Assembly: GCA_002189035.1 (NCBI GenBank)
Contig: NEEC01000004.1
Span: forward strand, 1,922,001 to 1,986,000
DNA: 64,000 nucleotides
Reading direction: 5' to 3'
Origin: Utricularia gibba
Lineage: Eukaryota; Streptophyta; Magnoliopsida; Lamiales; Lentibulariaceae
Shown here: piece by piece, positions 3,327-56,347 of the stretch
Position numbering within the stretch: the first letter of the stretch is position 1
Layout of the letters: each line of letters starts with the position of its first letter
Made by a program: the position numbers and the translations under genes
The notes under the pieces: generated by a model
What the model was told of the DNA's origin: nothing
Databases searched by the model: none
What the model saw: only the letters and a program-made list of their open reading frames with translations

Positions 3327-3523
3327 TAGTAGGGTTTATATATACCCACGTAGGTTACCCAACAGTGGGCCACAATCATTGAAAACACACAAAAAGCCCA
3401 ACAACTCGAATCCAACACTTCCATGCTCGAACCCAACACCTTTTTATCTGAAATATGACATTATGGCACAAGATTAGTGCTTCCAATCACCTTCAAGCTT
3501 TGGATTGAGGCTGATCTCCAATA
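3327..3523 (-). repeat. 3' LTR of the copia element
   Basis: Nearly identical to 6703-6902 and next to the polypurine tract. Its outer TG end appears mutated to TA. Confidence 0.8.
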
Positions 3524-6500
3524 CTCCCCCCCAGACCGAGATCTCCCAACTTGAGAAAGTCTTTCATAGTCATGAGATTCATGTTCTTCCTTGCTAGCTC
3601 AAACTGAACTCTATTCAAACCTTTGGTGAGCCCATCAGCAAGTTGATTCCCACTCTCAACGTACTGCACTTTAATCTTTTTCTCCTTGATGTAATTCCTT
3701 ATGACATGATACTTGATTCTTATGTGTTTGGCTTTGTTGAAGTTCGTCGGATCCTTGGCAATGGAGATTGCAGCTCGATTATCCATAAGCAGATGTGTAG
3801 CTTCCTTTTGTATGAATCCAAGTTTGTTTAACATCTGCCTCAACCAAACACAATAGTTCAAAGCATGTGCTGCTGAGATGTATTCTGCTTCAGCTGTTGA
3901 TTGTGCTTCCACTTTTTGTTTCTTCGAAAACCAGACTATAGGGGTCTTATTTAAAAAGACTCTTGCTATCTTCAGCCATCCCATAATAACTATCTGAGTA
4001 GACTCTAAGTTTCAAGACTGGTTTTTCACCTTCATAGGGATGGAACAATCCGAAATCAGTAGTAGATTTTATGTACTTGAAAGCTCTTTTCACAGCTGCC
4101 ATGTGAGTTTTTGTTGGTTTGTTGAGGAAGCGAGATAAGACATTTACACAAAAACACAAGTCAGGCCTTGTATGCTAGAGATAAATGAGGCTTCCAATCA
4201 TACTTCTATAAGTAGTGGCATCCACATTCTTTCCCTGATTGTTCATCTTCTTTTCCTTTAACATATAGTGAGTAATCACTATATGTTTTTCTGAAACCAA
4301 TACCCTGAAGAAAGTTATCCATGCGTTCATTCCATGTTCTAGGAGCTTGCTTCAACCCATGGAGAGATTTCTTTAACTTCAATACCTTGTCTTCATGACC
4401 TGACACTTCGAAGCCCTTTGGTTGTTCAACAAAAACAACCTCCTCCAACACACCATTCAAGAACGCAGTCTTGACATCCATGTGATGCACTTTCCATCCA
4501 TGGGCAGCTGAAATGGCAAGAAGTACTTTAATCGTGTCAAATCTTGCTATTGGTGCAAAAATCTCATGAAAATTTATTCCTTTGATCTGACTATATCCCT
4601 TGGCTACTAATCTAGCTTTATATTTGTTGATAGAACCATCTGCATTCATTTTGGTTTTGAATAACCACTTGAGGCCAATAGGTTTGAAACCCCTATCCTT
4701 GGGTTTATCAACTAACTCCCATGTTTCATTTTCAAAGTATAGAATTCATTTCTTCCTTCATGGCCTCTCTCCATTTCGGATTTTGTACAGCCACTTCAAA
4801 TGATGTTGGATCTCCTGTCAATAATCCAGTCAAAATATCAGCTACAGCATCTTGGACATCATCATTCAACTTGGAGAAACTTATTGTAGAAGCCTTGTTT
4901 CTTTTGCTTATTCTAATGTTAGTAACATGACTATCTTCATTATCTATTGAATCTCTGATGTTTTTGTGTTTCCTTCTTTGCCAATCACGATCAGATGAGT
5001 AATAATCTCATCAGTATCAGGTTCCTCTCCATCAGATTCATCTGTTGATGAGTCTTCTGCATTCATGCCTTGCTCCTCTTCTGGGATTTCGAAATTCCCA
5101 TCTGAATGTTGATCATTAGCCTGATGAGATTGTCCATATAGGGGTTCAGAGTTTGATTTTGAATTCTCATTGGACGAGCCATCTTGATTTGTGACCTTCT
5201 CCTCCTCTGGAGCTGGAAAATTGTCATCTGAATGCTGATCATTTACTTGATTTGAATCTTCATGAACGAGTTCTGAAGTTTCTTGGTTTGTTGAATTCCT
5301 GGAAGAGAAGTTTTGAGGCATGTGTGTCCAGAGGTCTCCTTTTCCATGGGTGTTATGCCTTCCATGACTTTTATAAGCTTCTGCATCATTCAGAGAAATG
5401 CAATCATCAATTGAAGTATACCTTGCACCTTCATCAAAAGTGACATCATGGCTGAAGATAAATTTCTTCTGTTGAGGTAGATAAACTTTATATCCCTTGG
5501 TAGTGTTGCTATAACCAACAAATACACCAAATACAGATTTCTTATCAAGTTTTCCTCGTTTTTGGTTTGGTACATGAGTAAAACACAGACTACCAAAGAT
5601 TCTGAGATGATCAACCTTTTTAATATAACCATGCCATTTTTCATGGGCAGTTTTTCCACTAATCGCCTTTGAGGGAAGCAAGTTCAATAGATATACAGAT
5701 GTAGATACCGCTTCAGCCCAGAAATTCACAAGAAGATCTTTCTCAAACAATAGGCATCTTGACATATCAAGGATTGTTCTGTTTCTCCTTTCACATATAC
5801 CATTCTGTTGTGGAGAATATGGTACGGTGAATTGATGCATGATTCCCTCATTTTCACAGAACATTCTCATGCTATTATTGTAGAATTCACCTCCATTGTC
5901 TGATCTAATCATCTTCAAAGAGCATCCATTTTGATTCTCAATCATCACTTTGAATTTTCGAAAGATATGAGGAACTTTTGACTTGCTTTTAAGAAAGTAA
6001 ACCTAACAATAACGTGAATAATCATCAATGAATGTAACAAAATATCTACTCCCCCCTAATGAACATTCCTTAAATGGTCCACAAACATCTGTATGCACAA
6101 GCTCTAATTTCTCCTTTACTACTGAATCATTGGAATAAAAGGGCTTTCTACACTGTTTACCTTGATGGCACACTTCACATATGGCATCGGCAAACTTGAT
6201 GTCTTTCAATTCCAGTACTTCCGTATTCTTTTGCAATATTTTCAGATTGTTGTGCCCAAAACGTTTGTGCCAAAGGCTACTTTGATCCTGAAGTGAGAAA
6301 ATACAACTTTTATGATCACTGACCATGATTTGGTAAAGGTTGTAGGTGGTCAACACAACATCAAATTCAATCTTTGTTGATTGACACTCTGCAATATCAT
6401 CAAACAGATGTTCAGAGATGGCTTGATACAAGGCATCCATTGCTTCATCTTTTCTCTGTTGAAGATACTCAGCTTCCTCTTGTTGTTCTGATGTGGATTT

Positions 6501-6647
6501 GCTTGTTATTGCAATAGCCGGAATCTTCCTTTCGACAACATCCCAAATCTTTCTGACCCGAAGGTAGCTACACATCTTTTTGGCCCAGCTTCCATACTCA
6601 GAACCATCAAATATTGGAGGTCCTCTACCAGATGCCATCATAGCCAC
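3493..6647 (-). pseudogene. copia gag-pol polyprotein pseudogene
   Basis: The minus-strand order is: Gag N-terminus from 6647 (FDGSEYGSWAKKM), joined by a deletion to the GAG-pre-integrase motif LWHKRFGHNNL, then integrase (HTDVCGPF, FIDDYSRY, SDNGGEFYN, SPQQNGICERRNRT). After 4943 comes reverse transcriptase with YKARLVAKGYSQ and VKTAFLNG, and at 3984-3493 RNase H with STAEAEYIS and KHIRIKYH. The Gag zinc knuckle and the protease are missing. The YVDD catalytic block of reverse transcriptase is deleted near 4230. A tryptophan codon in integrase is TAG near 6003. The element cannot be autonomous. Confidence 0.85.
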
Positions 6648-6702
6648 CGTTTGACAAGCTTTGGCTTGATACTTGGTAATCCACTAAGTAAAAAACGCTG
6701 AA

Positions 6703-17916: not shown

Positions 17917-20900
17917 ATGTGGAAGCTGAAGATAGCGGAAGGGAAAGATTCGCCTTATCTATACAGCACAAACGGGTTCGTGGGAAGACAGATCTGGGAG
18001 TTCGATCCTGAGGCCGGGACGCCGGAGGAACGGGAAGCTTTTGAGGATGCTCGCCGGAAGTTTCAAGAGAATAGGAAGCATGGGTTTCATTCATGCGGTG
18101 ATATGTTCACGAGAATCCAGGTGCTTGATTGGAAGGAGAGGCTACTTGGTGAATTTGGGATCCAGTATTTTGGTTACCAATTGCGTTTCCACGTTTACAG
18201 CTGAAGAAGGAGAGCGGGATTGATCTACTGAGCTTGCCGCCTGCGAGAGTCGGAGAAAACGAGGCCGTCAGCTACGAAACGGCGACGGTGGCCGTGAGGA
18301 AAGCATTGCGTCTTAATCGCGCTATTCAGGCGGTGGACGGTCATTGGCCGGCAGAGAACGCCGGCCCAATGTTCTTCACACCACCCCTGGTACGTGGCAG
18401 CTCGAAGGATACCCTTCTCCTTTCATTTTTTTTTTTAAACAAACTTAATTATCCTGTAATTTCCACTTTTTTTTTTGTTGTACAGATAATCGCACTGTAC
18501 ATAGGTGGAGCCATTAATGCAACTTTAACTTACGAACACAAAAAGGAGATGATCCGTTACATCCTCAATCATCAGGTACTTTTTCGAATGATTTTGTAAA
18601 TTAAAATTTTCAAAACATATTTATTAATCATTTACGTTTTACTCTTTAATGTATTTACCTTTTTTACATTTTTATTAATAACTTATTTTTAGTACTGATC
18701 TATATTAAAAATTTATCTTTATTTTCATCTCTAAATTTTAAATTATAAAATTAAATTTCAAATTATTAATTTAAATAATTTAAATCATAATCTTCAATTA
18801 AAACCTTAAAAATATGATATTATAACTTTAAACTAACCTAAATCAAAATAATAAAATTTATTTATCTTTATTTTAATCTCTAAAATGTCCAAAAACTTAT
18901 TAATATATTATACCCAAAGTATAAATACTGAATTTAAACCTTCAATTGAAACAATAAGGTCTGAAAATAAACTATATTTTTAATAATATTAATATATGAA
19001 AAAATACATCTAATAAATTTATTAAAAATAGAATACATAAAGAATCATAAAGATAAAATAAAATACAAAAAATATCTCTACTTTTATTAATATTACAATT
19101 TTTTTTATAAGATAATATAAATAAAAAAAGTAAATACAAAAAAGTTGAGATATTTACAAAGATAAAAGTATATTATCAATTATATTCTACAATTCAGATA
19201 AAACAATAACAAATTTGAAAACAAGAGTAAAATGAAAATGTTTTTAAAAAACTAGAGAATTTAACCTATTATCTTGTACTCTTTCTAGATTAGATTCTAA
19301 TTAATTCTCTATTTAACCTAATTGTGGTTTCAAATTATGTAACACATTTGTGATTATGACATGATAGAACGCGGATGGCGGATGGGGATTTTACATAGAG
19401 GGGCATAGCACCATGATCGGATCAGCCCTCAGTTATGTCTCGCTGAGGTTACTAGGGTTGGGCCCGGACGATGCGGACGGTGCCGTCGCCAAGGGCCGAA
19501 AATGGATCCTCGACCACGGTGGAGCAACCGGCATTCCTTCCTGGGGAAAAGCATACCTTTCGGTAATTTCATTCCGTTTGTAGGTATTTGTTTGTACGTT
19601 TCATGGGTTGCTAAAACTATATTTGACCAGGTACTTGGAGTGTACGGCTGGGATGGGTGCAACCCTCTTCCACCAGAGTTCTGGTTGTTCCCTTCAGTTC
19701 TTCCTTATCATCCGGGTATGATTCTTCTACAGGGAAACCTACAAGGAAGCTTTGTTTGCCTGATCCCATTCTAATCAGTAGTTTGAATACAAAAATGCAG
19801 CAAAAATGTGGTGCTATTGTCGTACAACATACATGCCAATGTCGTATTTGTATGGAAGGAAGTTCCATGGTCCTCTGACGGACCTGGTCATGTCCCTCAG
19901 ACAAGAGATCCATGTGAGGCCGTACCATCAGATCGATTGGAACAAGGCTCGCCATGATTGCTGCAAGGAGGACGTGTACTTCCCCCACACCTTCGTACAG
20001 GACTTGCTTTGGGATGTTCTTAACTATTGCTCTGAGCCCTTCATGAGGCGATGGCCGCTGAATAGGATACGGCAGAAGGCTCTTGACAAGACGATCAAGC
20101 ACATGCGTTACGGCGCAGAGGAAAGCCGATACATGACCATTGGATGTGTGGAAAAGGTACGTGCGTACATGTTGTTTTCAAGATTACAGCAATATGGTTT
20201 CTCTGTGAGGCAGAGCACATGTGAGTTTGTCGCAAATTTTTATGTGTTGCAGTCTCTACAAATGATGTGTTGGTTTGCCCTTGATCCAAACTGCGAGGAG
20301 TGGAAGTACCACATTGCAAGAGTTCCTGATTATCTGTGGCTAGCAGAGGATGGCATGAAGATGCATGTTTGTTAACTGACTTTACATCTGCATCAACTTC
20401 CATTCCCTTATCAGTTCTTTGATTGGAAATTTACTTGTTTGAATGAAGAGCTTTGGAAGTCAACTATGGGACTGCGTACTTGCAACTCAGGCAATACTCG
20501 CTAGTGGGATGACAGAGGAGTATGGTGACTCTCTAAAGAAAGCGCATTTCTACATCAAAGAATCCCAAGTATGATGATCCATCTATGAACTTCAATTGCT
20601 TTCTCATTTCACTTAGCTTTTGTGAAGGTGGTTTGATTCTTGGTTGAAATGCAGATAAAAGAAAATCCGAAGGGAGATTTTGAAAACATGCACCGGCATT
20701 TCACAAAGGGAGGTTGGACGTTTTCCGATCAGGATCAGGGATGGGTTGTATCTGACTGCACAGCTGAATCACTCAAGGTAGGACTAAACTTCACAAACCC
20801 ACAATCTCTTCCGAATTTAGAAACGCAATAGGGAGAGTCCTCTTTCCCTATGACACTCAATGAGTTGCGCTCTATCTGCTATTCCAGTGTCTGCTTCTGC

Positions 20901-22295
20901 TATCCCAAATGCCAGAGGAAATTGCAGGGGAAAAGGCAAAAGTGGAGGGTCTCTATGAAGCTGTAAACGTACTGCTCTACTTGCAAGTAAGCATGGCTGA
21001 TATACACATCAGGATTTCTTTAATACCTATGGGTTTGCAACTAATCGAAAATTCCGACGATCATCCAGAGTCCTCTGAGTGGCGGATTTGCGCTATGGGA
21101 GCCTGCAATTCCACAGCCTTACTTGCAGGTAAACAATTATCACGTCAAGATATTAGCACACATACTCTTCATCCAATATGCTCATCTCAGAACATTTCGC
21201 AGGTGTTGAATCCATCCGAACTCTTTGCTGACATAGTTGTTGAGCAAGAGTAAGATTTCAACTGCGTTCTTTGGTGGTTCAACAAGAAAGATAAATAACA
21301 CATGTATGTGTATGCAGGCATGTAGAATGCACTGCATCCGTCATGCAAGCACTGGTATACTTCAAGCGCCAGTATCCCGGACACCGTGAGAAGGAGATTG
21401 AGCTCTCCATTGCAAAAGCAGTACACTATCTACAAGAAAAGCAATGGCCTGATGGCTCATGGTGAGCTGTCAGCATACTGTGATCTACTCCACCGATGCA
21501 TACAGCAACAACTCAAATCTGGTTGCGTTGCAGGTACGGCTACTGGGGAATCTGCTTCATCTACGGCACATTCTTCGTGCTTGCAGGACTGGCTTCGGTC
21601 GGAAAGACGTACGAGAACAGCGATGCCGTCCGAAAAGCCGCCAACTTCTTCTTGTCCATACAAAACGAAGAAGGTGGATGGGGAGAATCCCTCGAGTCCT
21701 GTCCCTCTACGGTACTCACTATACATACTTGTTCATTTCAATAGGATGAATGGCGGCCAGATTGCGTTCTTATAAGCTTTCCATTGTTGCAGAAATACAC
21801 TCCTCTAGAAGGAAATCGGACCAACTTGGTTCAAACATCCTGGGCCATGCTCGGACTCATGCTTAGCGGGCAGGTTCGTTATACCGCACTTAAAATAACA
21901 GTGAAATCTTTTAACATATTGTAATCATTCTTTTGTTCTACGAAATGATCCACTCATTTCCACCAATACATTGTCGCATTTCTTACAAACGGAATCTGTG
22001 CTTCCCTTTTAGATGGAAAGAGACCCAAAGCCACTGCATAGAGCAGCCAAGTTGCTGATCAATGCGCAAATGGGGGATGGCGATTTGCCTCAGCAGGTGA
22101 AGCTTAAAACACATCTTTCCAGAAACAAGAAACCTAGTTTATGTGTTGCTTTATACATCATATGACATGCTCTCGCAGGAAATCACGGGAGTGTTCCAGA
22201 AGAACTGCATGCTCCATTACCCTCTACACCGGAACATTTTCCCATTGTGGGCGTTGGGGAAATACAGGAAGCGAGCATGGCCAGGCCAGATCTAG
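17917..22295 (+). CDS. Oxidosqualene cyclase OSC1 (intact, 17 exons)
   Basis: Predicted exons: 17917-18120, 18201-18389, 18486-18575, 19368-19562, 19631-19715, 19801-20156, 20253-20366, 20449-20568, 20655-20777, 20888-20986, 21069-21128, 21203-21249, 21318-21461, 21534-21711, 21793-21873, 22013-22096, 22179-22295. They join without a frame break to 762 codons including stop, giving 761 aa, the usual OSC length. The start is the family-typical MWKLKIAEG. Motifs: MWCYCR (257-262), catalytic DCTAE (485-489), VECT with Cys565, and QW-type repeats ([26 protein letters not shown]). OSCs cyclise 2,3-oxidosqualene at the ER membrane to triterpenes or sterols. The N-terminal third ([14 protein letters not shown]) resembles the lupeol/friedelin/mixed-amyrin synthase branch rather than cycloartenol synthases. 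MWCYCR is the Trp form seen in beta-amyrin-type enzymes. The product cannot be assigned. Intron 3 is 792 bp against about 92 bp in the paralogues. Confidence 0.93.
18590..19290. repeat. About 700-bp AT-rich insertion in OSC1 intron 3
   Basis: Absent from intron 3 of OSC2 and OSC3. The two ends share AAAACAT and TTTTACTCTT words in inverted orientation, so it may be a decayed MITE. No clear target duplication was found. Confidence 0.5.
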
Positions 22296-27950: not shown

Positions 27951-28535
27951 TATGGATACTCACATGAAGTATGAAAGAGACTTCGAATTAGACTACGAGA
28001 GTGAGGACGAAGACTGTGAAATTCTCGATGACCAATTCCCCATCGAGAATGATGATTATGGACTATCTTTGCAAGTTCCCGTATCTAAAGGAGTACAATT
28101 GGAAGGTCCTCGCAATGAAACAAGTGAAGGGCCTTTGAACATTGTTAGAACGGAAAGCGGTAGTATTCGAATACAAGAACTTTTATAAGTATAATTTGTT
28201 TTGATTATATTGTATTATTATCATTATTATTATTTAAATTATGTTTTATTTATAGGGAAGGGATAATCTTTGAATTGAAAGCCGAGGCGAAAGATGCACT
28301 TGAAGAATATTGTGTGCGGAAAGGAATCCAATTCTGGTTTGAGAAGAATGATAAGTATCGTTTAATTGCTCGTTGTAGAGGTAGTGAAGGGGTAACATGC
28401 CCATGGAAGGTGTATATGAAGGTAACATTGATGATAACTTGGAGTGTTTATGAAGTTACTCCACATAGAGACCATTGTCGGCCACATGTGAACAACAAAT
28501 CAGTAAATGCGCGTTGGCTTGACAATGTCATGTGA
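27951..28535 (+). pseudogene. MuDR-type transposase, N-terminal part only
   Basis: From the ATG at 27951 there is an acidic segment (ESEDEDCEILDDQ). A GT-AG-like break follows near 28188-28256, then the MuDR DNA-binding domain: FELKAEAKDALEEYCVRKGI, NDKYRLIARCRG, CPWKVYM, HRDHCRPH and NARWLDN. In the family this is followed by the MULE catalytic DDE domain. Here the frame ends with TGA inside the hairpin at 28514-28590 and no catalytic domain follows. Exon-like tails at about 28790-29145 (NASSKRRHEGNFGIDTSF) could be the C-terminal end of the same protein. Confidence 0.65.
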
Positions 28536-32015: not shown

Positions 32016-35000
32016 ATGTGGAAGCTGAAGATAGCGGAAGGGAAAGATTCGCCTTATCTATACAGCACAAACGGGTTCGTGGGAAGACAGATCTGGGAGT
32101 TCGATCCTGAGGCCGGGACGCCGGAGGAACGGGAAGCTTTTGAGGATGCTCGCCGGAAGTTTCAAGAGAATAGGAAGCATGGGTTTCATTCATGCGGTGA
32201 TATGTTCACGAGAATCCAGGTGCTTGATTGGAAGGAGAGGCTACTTGGTGAATTTGGGATCCAGTATTTTGGTTACCAATTGCGTTTCCACGTTTGCAGC
32301 TGAAGAAGGAGAGCGGGATTGATCTACTGAGCTTGCCGCCTGCGAGAGTCGGAGAAAACGAGGCCGTCAGCTACGAAACGGCGACGGTGGCCGTGAGGAA
32401 AGCATTGCGTCTTAATCGCGCTATTCAGGCGGTGGACGGTCATTGGCCGGCAGAGAACGCCGGCCCAATGTTCTTCACACCACCCCTGGTACGTGGCAGC
32501 TCGAAGGATACCCTTCTCCTTTCATTTTTTTTTTTTAAACAAACTTAATTATCCTGTAATTTCCACTTTTTTTTTTGTTGTACAGATAATCGCACTGTAC
32601 ATAGGTGGAGCCATTAATGCAACTTTAACTTACGAACACAAAAAGGAGATGATCCGTTACATCCTCAATCATCAGGTATTTTTTCTAAATTAAGTTCTGA
32701 TTAATTCTTTAATTAACCTAATTATCTTTCCAAATCATGTAACACATTTGTGATTGTGATATGACAGAACGGGGATGGAGGATGGGGATTTTACATAGAG
32801 GGGCATAGCACCATGATCGGATCAGCCCTCAGTTATGTCGCACTAAGGTTACTAGGATTGGGGCCGGATGATGCGGACGGTGCCGTCGCCAAGGGCCGGA
32901 AATGGATCCTCAACCACGGTGGAGCCACCGGGATTCCTTCCTGGGGAAAAACATACCTTTCGGTAATTTCATTCCGCTTGTAGGTATTTGTTTGTACGTT
33001 TCATGGGTTGCTAAAACTATATTTGACCAGGTACTTGGAGTGTACGACTGGGATGGGTGCAACCCTCTTCCACCAGAGTTCTGGCTGTTCCCTTCAGTTC
33101 TTCCTTATCATCCGGGTATGATTCTTCTACAGGGAAAACTACAACGAAGCTTTGTTTGCCTGATCCCATTCTAATCAGTAGTTTGAATACAAAAATGCAG
33201 CAAAAATGTGGTGCTATTGTCGTACAACATACATGCCAATGTCGTATTTGTATGGAAGGAAGTTCCATGGTCCTCTGACGGACCTGGTCATGTCCCTCAG
33301 ACAAGAGATCCATGTGAGGCCGTACCATCAGATCGATTGGAACAAGGCTCGCCATGATTGCTGCAAGGAGGACGTGTACTTCTCCCACACCTTCGTACAG
33401 GACTTGCTTTGGGATGTTCTTAACTATTGCTCTGAGCCATTCATGAGGCGATGGCCGCTGAATAAGATTCGGCAGAAGGCTCTTGACAAGACAATCAAGC
33501 ACATGCGGTATGGCGCAGAGGAAAGCCGATACATGACCATTGGATGTGTGGAAAAGGTACGTATGTACATGTTGTTTTCAAGATTACAGCAATATGGTTT
33601 CTCTGTGAGGCAGACCACATGAGAGTTTGTTGCAAATTTTGTGTTGCAGTCTCTACAGATGATGTGTTGGTTTGCTCATGATCCAAACTGCGAGGAGTGG
33701 AAGTACCACATTGCAAGAGTTCCTGATTATCTGTGGCTAGCAGAAGATGGCATGACGATGCATGTTAGTTTCACTGATTTTACATCTGCATCAACATCCA
33801 TTCCATTTTCAGTTCTTTGATGGGAAATTTACTTGTTTGAATGAAGAGCTTTGGAAGTCAAGTATGGGACTGCGCACTTGCAACTCAAGCAATAATCGCT
33901 AGTGGGATGACAGAGGAGTATGGTGACTCTCTAAAGAAAGCGCATTTCCACATAAAAGAATCCCAAGTATGAACTTCAATTTGCTTTTTCATTTCACTGT
34001 AGCGTTTGTGAAGGGTGGTTTGATCCTTGGTTGTAATGCAGATAAAAGAAAATCCGAAGGGAGATTTTGAAAGCATGTACCGGCATTTCACAAAGGGAGC
34101 TTGGGCGTTTTCCGATCAGGATCAGGGATGGGTTGTATCTGACTGCACAGCTGAATCACTCAAGGTACTAAACTTCACAAACCCACCATCTCTTCCGAAT
34201 TTAGAAACGCAATAGGGAGAGTCCTCTTTCCCTATGACACTCAATGAGTTGCGCTCTATCTGCTATTTCAGTGTCTGCTTCTGCTATCCCAAATGCCAGA
34301 GGAAATTGCAGGGGAAAAGGCAAAAGTGGAGCGTCTCTATGAAGCTGTAAACGTACTGCTCTACTTGCAAGTAAGCATGGCTGATATACACATCAGGATT
34401 TCTTTAATACCGATGGGTTTGCAACTAATCGAAAACTCCGACGATCATCCAGAGTCCTCTAAGTGGCGGATTTTCGGTATGGGAGCCTCCAATTCCACAG
34501 CCTTACTTGGAGGTAAGCAATCATCACGCCAAGATATCAGAGCCCACGTACTCTGCATTCAATATGCTCATCTCAATGTTTTGATCATTCCTCAGGTGTT
34601 GAATCCATCCGAACTCTTTGCTGACATAGTTGTTGAGCACGAGTAAGATTTCAACTGCGTTCTTTAGTTGTTGAATAAGAAAGATAAATAACACATGTAT
34701 GTGTATGCAGGCATGTAGAACCCACTGCATCCATCATCCAAGCACTGGTATACTTCAAGCGCCAGCATCCCGGACACCGTGAGAAGGAGATTGAGCTCTC
34801 CATTGCAAAAGCAGTACACTTTCTAGAGGAAAAGCAATGGCCTGATGGCTCATGGTGAGCTGTCAGCATACTGTGATCTACTCCACCGATGCATACAGCA
34901 ACAACTCAAATCTGGTTGCGTTGCAGGTACGGCTACTGGGGAATCTGCTTCATCTACGGCACACTCTTCGTGCTTGCAGGACTGGCTTCGGTGGGAAAGA

Positions 35001-35689
35001 CGTACGAGAACAGCGATGCCGTCCGAAAAGCCGCCAACTTCTTCTTGTCCATACAAAACGAAGAAGGTGGATGGGGAGAATCCCTCGAGTCCTGTCCCTC
35101 TATGGTACCCACTATACATACTTATTCATTACAATGGGATGATTGGCGGCCAGATTGCGTTCTTACAAGCTTTCCATTGTTGCAGAAATACACTCCTCTA
35201 GAAGGAAATCGGACCAACTTGGTCCAAACATCCTGGGCCATGCTCGGACTTATGCTTACCGGACAGGTTCGTTATACGGCACCTAAAATAAAAGTGAAAT
35301 CTTCTAAGTTTGAATGATCCACTCATTTCCACCAATCTCATCTTTAATGCATATACGATATATGGTCGCATTTCTTACAAACGGGATCTGTGCTTCCCTT
35401 TTAGATGGAAAGAGACCCAAAGCCACTGCACAGAGCAGCCAAGTTGCTGATCAATGCGCAAATGGAGGATGGCGATTTCCCTCAGCGGGTGAAGCTTAAA
35501 ACACACATCTTTCCAGAAACAAAAAACCAAGTTTATGCAATGCTTTATACATCATATGACATGCTTTCGCAGGAAATCACGGGAGTGTACATGAAGAACT
35601 GCATGCTCCATTACGCTCTACACCGGACCATTTTCCCATTATGGGCGTTGGGGGAATACAGGAAGCGAGCATGGCCAGGCCAGATCTAG
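32016..35689 (+). CDS. Oxidosqualene cyclase OSC2 (intact frame, altered VECT motif)
   Basis: Predicted exons: 32016-32219, 32300-32488, 32586-32675, 32768-32962, 33031-33115, 33201-33556, 33650-33763, 33847-33966, 34042-34164, 34272-34370, 34453-34512, 34596-34642, 34711-34854, 34927-35104, 35186-35266, 35405-35488, 35573-35689. Each exon has the same length as in OSC1 and the join gives 761 aa with no stop. MWCYCR (257-262) and DCTAE (485-489) are kept. At 563-566 it reads VEPT instead of VECT, so proline replaces the cysteine that in characterised OSCs hydrogen-bonds the catalytic Asp. Other changes from OSC1 include GMTMH for [20 protein letters not shown], and FPQR before the last intron. 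Either the enzyme has altered activity or product, or it is functionally weakened. It belongs to the same OSC branch as OSC1. Confidence 0.9.
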
Positions 35690-48631: not shown

Positions 48632-51600
48632 ATGTGGAAGCTGAAGATAGCGGAAGGGAAAGATTCGCCTTATCTATACAGCACAAACGGGTTCGTCGGA
48701 AGACAGATCTGGGAGTTCGATCCTGACGGCGGCACGCAGGAGGAACGGGAAGCTTTTGAGGATGCTCGCCGGAAGTTTCAAGAGAATATGAAGCATGGGT
48801 TTCATTCCTGCGGCGATATGTTCACGAGAATCCAGGTGCTTGATTGGAAGGAGAGGCTACTTGGTGAATTTGGGATCCGGTAATTTGGTTACCAATTGCG
48901 TTTCCACGTTTGCAGCTGAAGAAGGAGAGCGGGATTGATCTACTGAGCTTGCCGCCTGCGAGAGTCGGAGAAAACGAGGACGTCAGCTACGAAACGGCGA
49001 CGGTGGCCGTGAGGAAAGCATTGCGTCTTAATCGCGCTATTCAGGCGGTGGACGGTCATTGACCGGCAGAGAACACCGGCCCAATGTTCTTCACACCACC
49101 CCTGGTACGTGGGAGCCTCAACGATAGATATCCTTCTCCTTTCATTTTTTTTTTAAAGAAACCTTATTATTCTTTAATTCCAAAGAAAAAAAATTATATT
49201 TTTTTGTTTTATTGTGATCATGATATTTTCTGGATACAGATAATTGCACTGTACATAGGTGGAGCCATTAATACAACTTTAACCTCCGAACACATAAAGG
49301 AGATGGTCCGTTACATCCTCGATCATCGGGTACTTTTTTCTAATTTAAGTTCTGATTAATTGTCTACTAAACCTAATTAACTTTTCAAATTATGTAACAC
49401 AATTGTTACTATGACATGACAGAACGCGGATGGAGGATGGGGATTTTATATAGAGGGGCATAGCACCATGATCGGATCAGTCCTGAGTTATGTCTCACTA
49501 AGGTTACTAGGGTTGGGCCCGGACGATGCGGACTGTGCCGTCGCCAAGGGCCGGAAATGGATCCTCGACCACGGTGGAGCCACCGGGATTCCTTCTTGGG
49601 GAAAAGCGTACCTTTCGGTAATTTCATTCCGTTTGTAGGTGATTGCTTGTACATTTCATGGGTTGCTAAAAGTTATGTTTGATCAGGTACTTGGAGTTTA
49701 TGACTGGGATGGGTGCAACCCTCTTCCACCAGAGTTCTGGCTGTTCCCTTCAGTTCTTCCTTATCATCCGGGTATGATTCTTCTACAGGGAAGACTACAA
49801 GGAAGCTTTGTTTGCCTGATCCCATTCTAATCAGTATTTTGAATACAAAAATGCAGCAAAAATGTGGTGCTATTGTCGTATAACATACATGCCAATGTCG
49901 TATTTGTATGGAAGGAAGTTCCATGGTCCTTTGACGGACCTGGTCATGTCCCTCAGACAAGAGATCCATGTGAGGCCGTACCATCAGATCGATTGGAACA
50001 AGGCTCGCCATGATTGCTGCAAGGAGGACTTGTACTTCCCCCACACCTTCGTACAGGACTTGCTTTGGGATGTTCTTAACTATTGCTCTGAGCCCTTCAT
50101 GAGGCGATGGCCGCTGAATAAGATCCGGCAGAAGGCTCTTGACAAGACGATCAAGCACATGCGGTATGGCGCAGAGGAAAGCCGATACATGAGCATTGGA
50201 TGTGTGGAAAAGGTACGTATGTACATGTTGTTTTCAAGATTACAGCAATATGGTTTCTCTTTGAGGCAGATCACATGAGAGTTTGTTGCAAATTTTTATG
50301 TGTTGCAGTGTCTAGAGATGATGTGTTGGTTTGCTCATGATCCAAACTGCGAGGAGTGGAAGTACCACATTGCAAGAGTTCCTGATTATCTGTGGCTAGC
50401 AGAGGATGGCATGAAGATGCATGTGTGTTTCACTGATTTTACATCTCCATCAACTTCCATTTCCCTTTCAGTTCTCTCTAATGGGAAATTTACGTGTTTG
50501 AATGAAGAGCTTCGGAAGTCAAATATGGGACTGCGCACTTGCAACTCAAGCAATACTCGCTAGTGGGATGACAGAGGAGTATGGTGACTCTCTAAAGAAA
50601 GCGCATTTCCACATAAAAGAATCCCAAGTATGAACTTCAATTTGCTTTTTCATTTCACTGTAGCGTTTATGAAGGGTGGTTTGATCCTTGGTTGTAATGC
50701 AGATAAAAGAAAATCCGAAGGGAGATTTTGAAAGCATGTACCGGCATTTCACAAAGGGAGCTTGGGCGTTTTCCGATCAGGATCATGGATGGGTTGTATC
50801 TGACTGCACAGCTGAATCACTCAAGGTACTAAACTTTACAACCCTCAATCTCTTCCGAATTTAGAAATGCAATTGGCAGAGTCCTCTTTCCGTATAACAC
50901 TCAGTTAGTTGCGCTCTATCTGCAATTCCAGTGTCTGCTTCTGCTATCCCAAATGCCAGAGGAAATTGCAGGGGAAAAGGCAAAAGTAGAGCGTCTCTTT
51001 GAAGCTGTAAACGTACTGCTCTACTTGCAAGTAAGCATGGCTGATATACACACAAGGATTTCTTTAATACCGATGGGTTTGCAACTAATCGAAAACTCCG
51101 ACGATCATCCAGAGTCCTCTGAGTGGCGGATTTGCGCTATGGGAGCCTGCAATTCCACAGCCTTACTTGCAGGTAAACAATCATCACGCCAAGATATCAG
51201 AGCCCACGTACTCTGCATCCAATATGCTCATCTCAATGTTTTGATCATTCCTCAGGTGTTGAATCCATCCGAGCTCTTTGCTGACGTAGTTGTTGAGCAA
51301 GAGTAAGATTTCAACTACGTTTTTGGTGGTTCAACAAGAAAGATAAATAACCCACTTTTGTGTATGCAGGCATGTAGAACCCACTTCATCCATCATCCAA
51401 GCACTGGTATACTTCAAGCGCCAGCATCCTGGACACCGTGAGAAGGAGATTGCGCTCTCCATTGCAAAAGCAGTACACTTTCTAGAGGAAAAGCAATGGC
51501 CTGATGGCTCATGGTGAGCTGTCAACATACTGTGATCCACTCCACCCATACATACAACAAACAACTCAAAACTGGTTGCGTTGCAGGTACGGCTACTGGG

Positions 51601-55163: not shown

Positions 55164-56347
55164 CTAAAATTTGATTTTGAGGGTTACCTTAGTGGAGCCT
55201 GAGGTCATTGAAATGGTGGCGGATGAGGTCGCCGGAAGAGAGGAGACTCCGACATTATAAACTAGTGTGCCGTTGGGCCGGAAAAGTCCGTAATTGCGTT
55301 CGGAAGTCGGCCCTGGTTTCATGTTCTCGTTGAACAATGCGAATAGGTAGATTTCTAATTTGCTGCTGGGTCTCAATGGAGTTCCTTCATTCTCCGTTTG
55401 TCTTGCCATCAGATTCCGGCTGTAGACTGCCGCGTTTTCGAGGTTGGCACCGACCTCATCCTCGTCGCCTTTCGAAGGCCACCCTGTTTCTGTCACCATA
55501 ACTGGAATCCCCCTGAAGCCCATTTTCGCCATCGCGTATGTGACAGCATCAACCTGGGCGTACAGCATGTTGTCGTAGTGAAGATTTGTGTTTTCATCCA
55601 CCATCCCTGAATTCGGATTGAAAAGCACGTAATCCAGAGGGATTTTTTCTGGGTTGTCTTTGTAAGCAAAGTACGGATATGCGTTGATCCAAAAAGAGGC
55701 TCTTGTTGCGGACAAGAACCGCAGAATTTCAGGCATTATTCCGGCGAGTTCCTCCCGGAAACTCCCTGCCGACGGCGGATACGATTCCTGGAGAACCGCC
55801 AGTGAATTGGGAGTAGAAACTTCGATGTACTGATCCAATCCAAGCCTCGCCAAAGCGTTGTGAATGTTCACCATAGCCGGAACGAGATAACTCAGGAGCG
55901 CAGTATTTCCGCCGGTGAAAACCTCGTTGCCTACAGCGATTCCGGTTATCCGGGTGGCTGGGAAATACGGCCTGATGTTGGTGTACACCCATTTCATAGC
56001 CTGATTTGGGTCGGTTAAAGTCGGGAACACCTCGTTCTCTACAGTGACAATGATCTCGATGTTGGAGTTAGCAAATGCCGTGAGAGCTCGGCGATCGGTG
56101 TCGTAAATTCGAGTTTTCGTTATCCCTAACGACCTTAGGAGCCGAATAGCCTTCTCCGGCGGCGGCAAATTGTTACCCACTTGGCCGTAGTTAACACCCA
56201 GACATTCTAACAACAAAAAATGAAAGAATCATCAGCACGTCTCACAGACAAGAAGAATAACATAATTTGCAAGAACATACCTGAAAAGGGCAGGAAGATT
56301 CCGGAGAGAATATGTAGAACGAAAATCTTTGTAAGAAGATTCTCCAT
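55164..56347 (-). CDS. GH17 endo-1,3-beta-glucanase, secreted
   Basis: Minus-strand exons 56347-56281 and 56206-55164 give 369 aa. Exon 1 encodes a signal peptide (MENLLTKIFVLHILSGIFL) ending near PFSEC, followed by the mature start LGVNYGQVGNNLPPP typical of GH17. The catalytic acid/base Glu lies in GIAVGNEVF and the nucleophile Glu in VMVTETGWPSKGD. The conserved FALFNENMKPGPTSERNYGL ending is present. The enzyme hydrolyses 1,3-beta-glucan (callose or fungal wall glucan) in the apoplast or at the cell surface. No X8/CBM43 domain is seen. An alternative 3' end splices at 55188 (AAG|GTAACC) to an exon at 55085-54993, replacing the last 7 residues with 30 that include a hydrophobic segment. 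The gene is unrelated to the OSC array. Confidence 0.92.

Follow-up and report, generated by a model that had tools for sequence, protein, structure and literature searches.

The gene OSC2 raises the question of whether an oxidosqualene cyclase (OSC) can still work when proline replaces one of the cysteines that activate its catalytic aspartate, or whether such a residue marks a gene that is losing its function. We analyzed the gene and its relatives in the window, the whole stretch of 64,000 nucleotides (C413:1922001-1986000), and in the rest of the genome.

The OSC2 gene and its tandem array

Exons were modelled by splice-aware protein-to-genome alignment, with the A. thaliana CAS1 sequence as a guide that was used solely for exon finding. 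Before the terminal codons, the models span 32016-35662 (OSC2) and 17917-22268 (OSC1). The copies found are as follows.

17917..22295, + strand: OSC1, open 17-exon copy with VECT (spliced alignment)
32016..35689, + strand: OSC2, oxidosqualene cyclase gene with open frame and VEPT; 17 exons, 16 GT-AG introns (spliced alignment)
34141..34155, + strand: DCTAE of OSC2, catalytic Asp485 and Cys486, encoded by GACTGCACAGCTGAA
48632..52316, + strand: OSC3, VEPT pseudogene; W117 changed to a stop (TGG to TGA), C-terminal frame altered
C413:1913513-1917352 (L010:1413-5252), about 5 kb upstream of the window: OSC0, fourth array copy, VEPT, broken

All 16 introns are GT-AG in each copy modelled in the window (OSC1, OSC2, and OSC3). 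The spliced OSC2 model has 753 residues, aligns end to end with the CAS guide, matches 1W6K and 8j5z, and ends, like OSC1, in KRAWPGQI followed by a stop. DCTAE lies at residue 485 in OSC1, OSC2, and OSC3 with identical coding letters (GACTGCACAGCTGAA), so that the motif is intact in all three, as had been noted. This acid motif and the full-length two-domain homology to human OSC identify OSC2 as a eukaryotic-type oxidosqualene cyclase; it reads SDCTAE where squalene-hopene cyclases (SHCs) have VDDTA or LDDTA of the DXDD acid motif. It also keeps the MWCYCR motif (beta-amyrin-type, pentacyclic), whereas the cycloartenol synthase of this genome has MWCHCR. The second Asp-activating cysteine (human Cys533) is missing, with Pro565 in its place; because the motifs that define the family do not usually include this cysteine, OSC2 still belongs to the OSC family by descent.

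A whole-genome search (100.09 Mb, 516 contigs) found ten places matching exon 13, four of them in this array. We take OSC2 to belong to a tandem array of four plant pentacyclic-type oxidosqualene cyclases that expanded recently. Neither a broken frame nor a broken splice site, the usual marks of a pseudogene, was found in OSC2. OSC0 and OSC3 do bear such marks: OSC0 is frameshifted, with small coding gaps at codons 85, 525, and 556, and has TGA at codon 747. The original picture of three copies did not include the damage to OSC3, and it lacked OSC0. Proline occurs in three of the four array copies, two of these three VEPT copies are pseudogenes, and OSC2 is the sole VEPT copy with an open frame.

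Proline in place of an Asp-activating cysteine

The residues concerned are encoded by exon 13 and its equivalents.

21322..21333, + strand: VECT of OSC1, encoded by GTAGAATGCACT, with a TGC codon
34711..34854, + strand: exon 13 of OSC2 (spliced alignment)
34721..34723, + strand: Pro565 codon of OSC2, CCC; Cys in OSC1 and in every other OSC checked outside OSC0 and OSC3
51374..51385, + strand: VEPT of OSC3, in the context VEPTSS

The OSC2 motif, GTA GAA CCC ACT at 34715-34726, encodes VEPT at residues 563-566. The spliced models confirmed the predicted difference between VECT in OSC1 and VEPT in OSC2 and OSC3, and the codons bear out the two base changes from TGC to CCC. A phmmer alignment placed Pro565 opposite human OSC Cys533 and the VECT of TwOSC1; with the literature on Cys533, C563, and C564 (PMC10086137, PMC5022052), it upholds the assignment of this column to the Asp-activating cysteine. 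A sequencing or assembly error at the proline codon is highly improbable, since the same CCC occurs in three loci (OSC0, OSC2, and OSC3) with different flanks and surrounding substitutions, and nothing was found in its favor.

A genome scan for bacterial OSCs, seeded by the AEDGMKM motif, gave 80 loci, every one of which has Cys at this column. Four further OSCs found by profile without that seed also have Cys, bringing the bacterial OSCs to 84. Cys is likewise present in human OSC, TwOSC1, C375 (cycloartenol synthase-like), and the amyrin-type copies C304a, C304b, and OSC1. Pro occurs solely in OSC0, OSC2, and OSC3. The aligned SHCs have Val (8 of 9) or Ile (1 of 9) at this column, a tenth having no alignment there. 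On these alignments, the proline is beyond chance. That many OSCs might carry it was not borne out in the sets compared, namely the 84 bacterial OSCs, human OSC, TwOSC1, and the paralogs of this genome; other plant OSCs may still have Pro there. A literature search retrieved no paper that mentions a naturally occurring Pro variant or this plant's VECT cysteine, and a search of viral contigs for OSC relatives found none.

Mosaic structure of OSC2 and origin of the proline

The proline is a derived state, because the other OSCs of this genome have Cys. Exon 13 is identical in OSC0 and OSC2 and differs from that of OSC2 at three sites in OSC3 and at eight in OSC1, a gradation that fits a single origin of the proline. 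Three stretches of OSC2 coincide with one or another of its neighbors.

32314..32674, + strand: tract identical to OSC1 (50 polymorphic sites, permutation p 2e-4)
33537..33875, + strand: tract identical to OSC0, carrying K409T (31 polymorphic sites, permutation p 2e-4)
34710..34963, + strand: block without difference from OSC0, containing the Pro codon; the nearest differences on either side are at 34709 and 34964

Around the Pro codon, OSC2 and OSC0 differ at one site over 34710-35101 (approximately 390 bp) and at none over approximately 250 bp; 31 differences occur in the 327 bp just upstream of 34710, and divergent sequence flanks the block on both sides. The OSC3-like stretch of OSC2 after 35103 is weaker (permutation p 0.04). 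By its pattern of shared tracts, OSC2 is a mosaic produced by gene conversion. It is a known evolutionary pattern that an adjacent pseudogene converts a gene copy, as in CYP21A1P/CYP21A2. OSC2 resembles that pair in that its change at a conserved site lies within a tract that a broken neighbor also has, but in OSC2 the transfer may have run in either direction. A literature search for gene conversion in OSC arrays found none.

The proline is not the only change in OSC2 at a well-conserved position. K409T (AEDGMKM to AEDGMTM) is common to OSC0, P316S is private to OSC2, and Q723R is common to OSC3; human OSC and TwOSC1 keep K at 409 and P at 316. The description of OSC2 as otherwise intact is therefore right for its open, splice-consistent frame, but not in view of these three substitutions, the conversion mosaic, and the two dead VEPT neighbors. 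We rejected K409T as a second "invariant" lesion: its conservation in all members of the 80-locus bacterial set is circular because the set was seeded by AEDGMKM, some bacterial OSCs differ there, and the evidence from human OSC, TwOSC1, and the paralogs alone counts. W622L and T618I were also dropped as lesions, TwOSC1 having IYSTMF there. All array copies have a His three residues ahead of the Cys column. This His is also present in the functional GsAS1, whose product is 7.8% of that of GsAS2, and the corresponding Tyr-to-His change in GsAS2 leaves 58.7% (PMC5022052).

Selective constraint

Between array copies, omega is 0.20-0.40 for exons 1-12 (0.30 for OSC1 versus OSC2) and 0.57-1.03 for exons 13-17, except in OSC2 versus OSC3, where 0.38 comes from seven differences in total and is uninformative on constraint. 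For OSC1 versus OSC2, exons 13-17 have 19 nonsynonymous and 7 synonymous changes (omega 0.76). The control pair C304a/C304b gave 0.33 in exons 1-12 and 0.17 in exons 13-17 (8 nonsynonymous, 14 synonymous). The contrast in exons 13-17 (19:7 versus 8:14) has a Fisher p of 0.019, with small counts and a split at exon 13 that was chosen after the finding was seen. Exons 13-17 thus appear to evolve close to neutrality between array copies, unlike those of the control OSC pair, and this favors impaired or lost OSC2 function over a new initiation chemistry. Whole-gene pairwise omega is approximately 0.4, below 1 (P 4e-4 for OSC2 versus OSC1), and the changes private to OSC2 (6 nonsynonymous, 5 synonymous, P 0.07) are weak evidence of some constraint; taken together, these values suggest that some constraint acted on OSC2.

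Probable consequences for catalysis

In human OSC, Cys456 and Cys533 form hydrogen bonds with Asp455 that increase its acidity (PMC10086137), and in a Gentiana beta-amyrin synthase C563 is the hydrogen-bond partner of D484 (PMC5022052). In a plant OSC, D490E lowered the yield to 1.67%, and C491A, at the Cys of DCTAE, also lowered it (PMC10086137). EtAS D485N/E are inactive; C564A is cited as made and is not listed as inactive (PMC10086137), so that loss of this cysteine may be tolerated. An AlphaFold model of the bacterial OSC L018 (mean pLDDT 81.9; best PDB match human OSC) has Cys541 in the third position of helix 539-555; its catalytic Asp464 lies in the first turn of another helix. Because the first turn of a helix tolerates proline, the fold of OSC2 can survive Pro565 while the thiol is lost. 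From the published yields of the Asp and Cys mutants and the helix position, a weak OSC2 enzyme seems likeliest, a dead or rewired one less so.

We consider it probable that Pro565 is a derived state in which the second Asp-activating cysteine was lost once, that conversion spread this loss under relaxed constraint, and that OSC2 is a weak or inactive cyclase. The Cys-to-Pro change would have arisen once, in the exon-13 lineage leading to OSC0, OSC2, and OSC3, and gene conversion would then have shared it among the array copies. The proline would remove one of the two thiols hydrogen-bonding Asp485, leaving Cys486; placed in the first turn of the helix, it need not break the fold. With the acidity of Asp485 reduced, a folded OSC2 would protonate the epoxide poorly, in an array that is losing constraint on its 3' exons. 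The intact frame and splice sites of OSC2, a whole-gene omega below 1, and the possible tolerance of EtAS C564A count against this reading.

It is rather unlikely that OSC2 is a working cyclase under selection, in which Cys486 alone stands beside Asp485 and a weaker or differently posed initiation gives another product or suits a more basic or oxidized substrate. The 17 exons in open frame, the intact DCTAE and MWCYCR, and the whole-gene omega agree with such an enzyme, as does the first-turn position of the residue in the L018 model, and the SHCs with Val or Ile indicate that the superfamily can function without this cysteine through another donor. However, the proline is shared with two dead copies and lies in a conversion block common to one of them, the 3' exons evolve nearly neutrally, and no sampled OSC besides the VEPT copies of the array lacks the cysteine. 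We doubt that OSC2 would prove to be an active, selected OSC starting cyclization with a single activating thiol. That OSC2 is fully dead and on its way to a pseudogene, unexpressed or catalytically null, with the proline as one of several tolerated lesions, is quite improbable: the broken neighbors OSC0 and OSC3 and the additional P316S, K409T, and Q723R agree with it, but approximately 2.3 kb of coding sequence has no frame lesion at a dS of approximately 0.06 from the siblings, although conversion can keep a frame open. The variant is real and rare, but the array in which it lies speaks for relaxed constraint more than for innovation.

If OSC2 works, it would be the first natural OSC found here without a cysteine that otherwise does not vary across bacteria, plants, and humans. 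As a natural test of the need for the second cysteine, it would show how much tuning of the proton donor OSCs require and what change of product or substrate follows. If it is inactive, the array would show clearly how gene conversion can spread a harmful change in the active site among tandem copies. DCTAE in an open frame would then be insufficient to call an OSC functional.

Related enzymes and genomic neighborhood

OSC2 shares DCTAE, MWCYCR, the QW repeats, and a length of approximately 760 residues with plant beta-amyrin synthases (EtAS and GsAS1/GsAS2), and with GsAS1 also 17 exons and 16 introns and the His located three positions ahead of the Cys column (PMC5022052). It differs from EtAS and GsAS in having Pro instead of Cys564/Cys563 and in changes found throughout the array, for example YGAEES in place of YEDENS. 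The closest solved relative by sequence is the plant OSC TwOSC1 (PDB 8j5z), which differs in having VECT and the conserved K409 and P316. Human lanosterol synthase (PDB 1W6K/1W6J) is similar in fold and in its catalytic Asp455-Cys456, but has Cys533 at the equivalent column and a sterol-type product specificity. SHCs share the superfamily and fold and likewise lack Cys at the column; they differ in the DXDD motif and squalene substrate, OSC2 keeping DCTAE.

All four array copies have YGAEES at residues 358-362 where other plant OSCs have YEDENS, and conserved columns with a departure from the OSC consensus are more numerous in the array than in the C304 paralogs. In the regions at 34141 (OSC2), 20754 (OSC1), and 50802 (OSC3), OSC0, OSC1, and OSC2 have Gln (DQGW), as does C304b, and OSC3 has His (DHGW); we take this position to be the equivalent of A. 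thaliana CAS1 His477. In OSC1, intron 3 (18576-19367) is 792 bp, compared with 92-93 bp in OSC2 and OSC3, reflecting an insertion, and exon 16 (22013-22096) of this VECT copy has its own changes, E716G and F720L, at a QW motif.

Elsewhere in the genome, C304:2832619-2835981 (L014) holds C304c, a third copy of the other OSC cluster, whose middle exons lie on the opposite strand, indicating an internal inversion. The small contig C237 (20001-28300; L016) nearly repeats the C304 OSC region, perhaps as an alternative haplotype or as a duplicate that was left unplaced. The window also contains Copia-type retrotransposon remains with broken frames at 3496-6683 on the minus strand; Pfam matched their integrase, and their reverse transcriptase and RNase H were recognized by eye. 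A MuDR-type fragment lies at 28164-28532, and a gene of glycosyl hydrolase family 17 lies downstream of the array at 55167-56228 on the minus strand.
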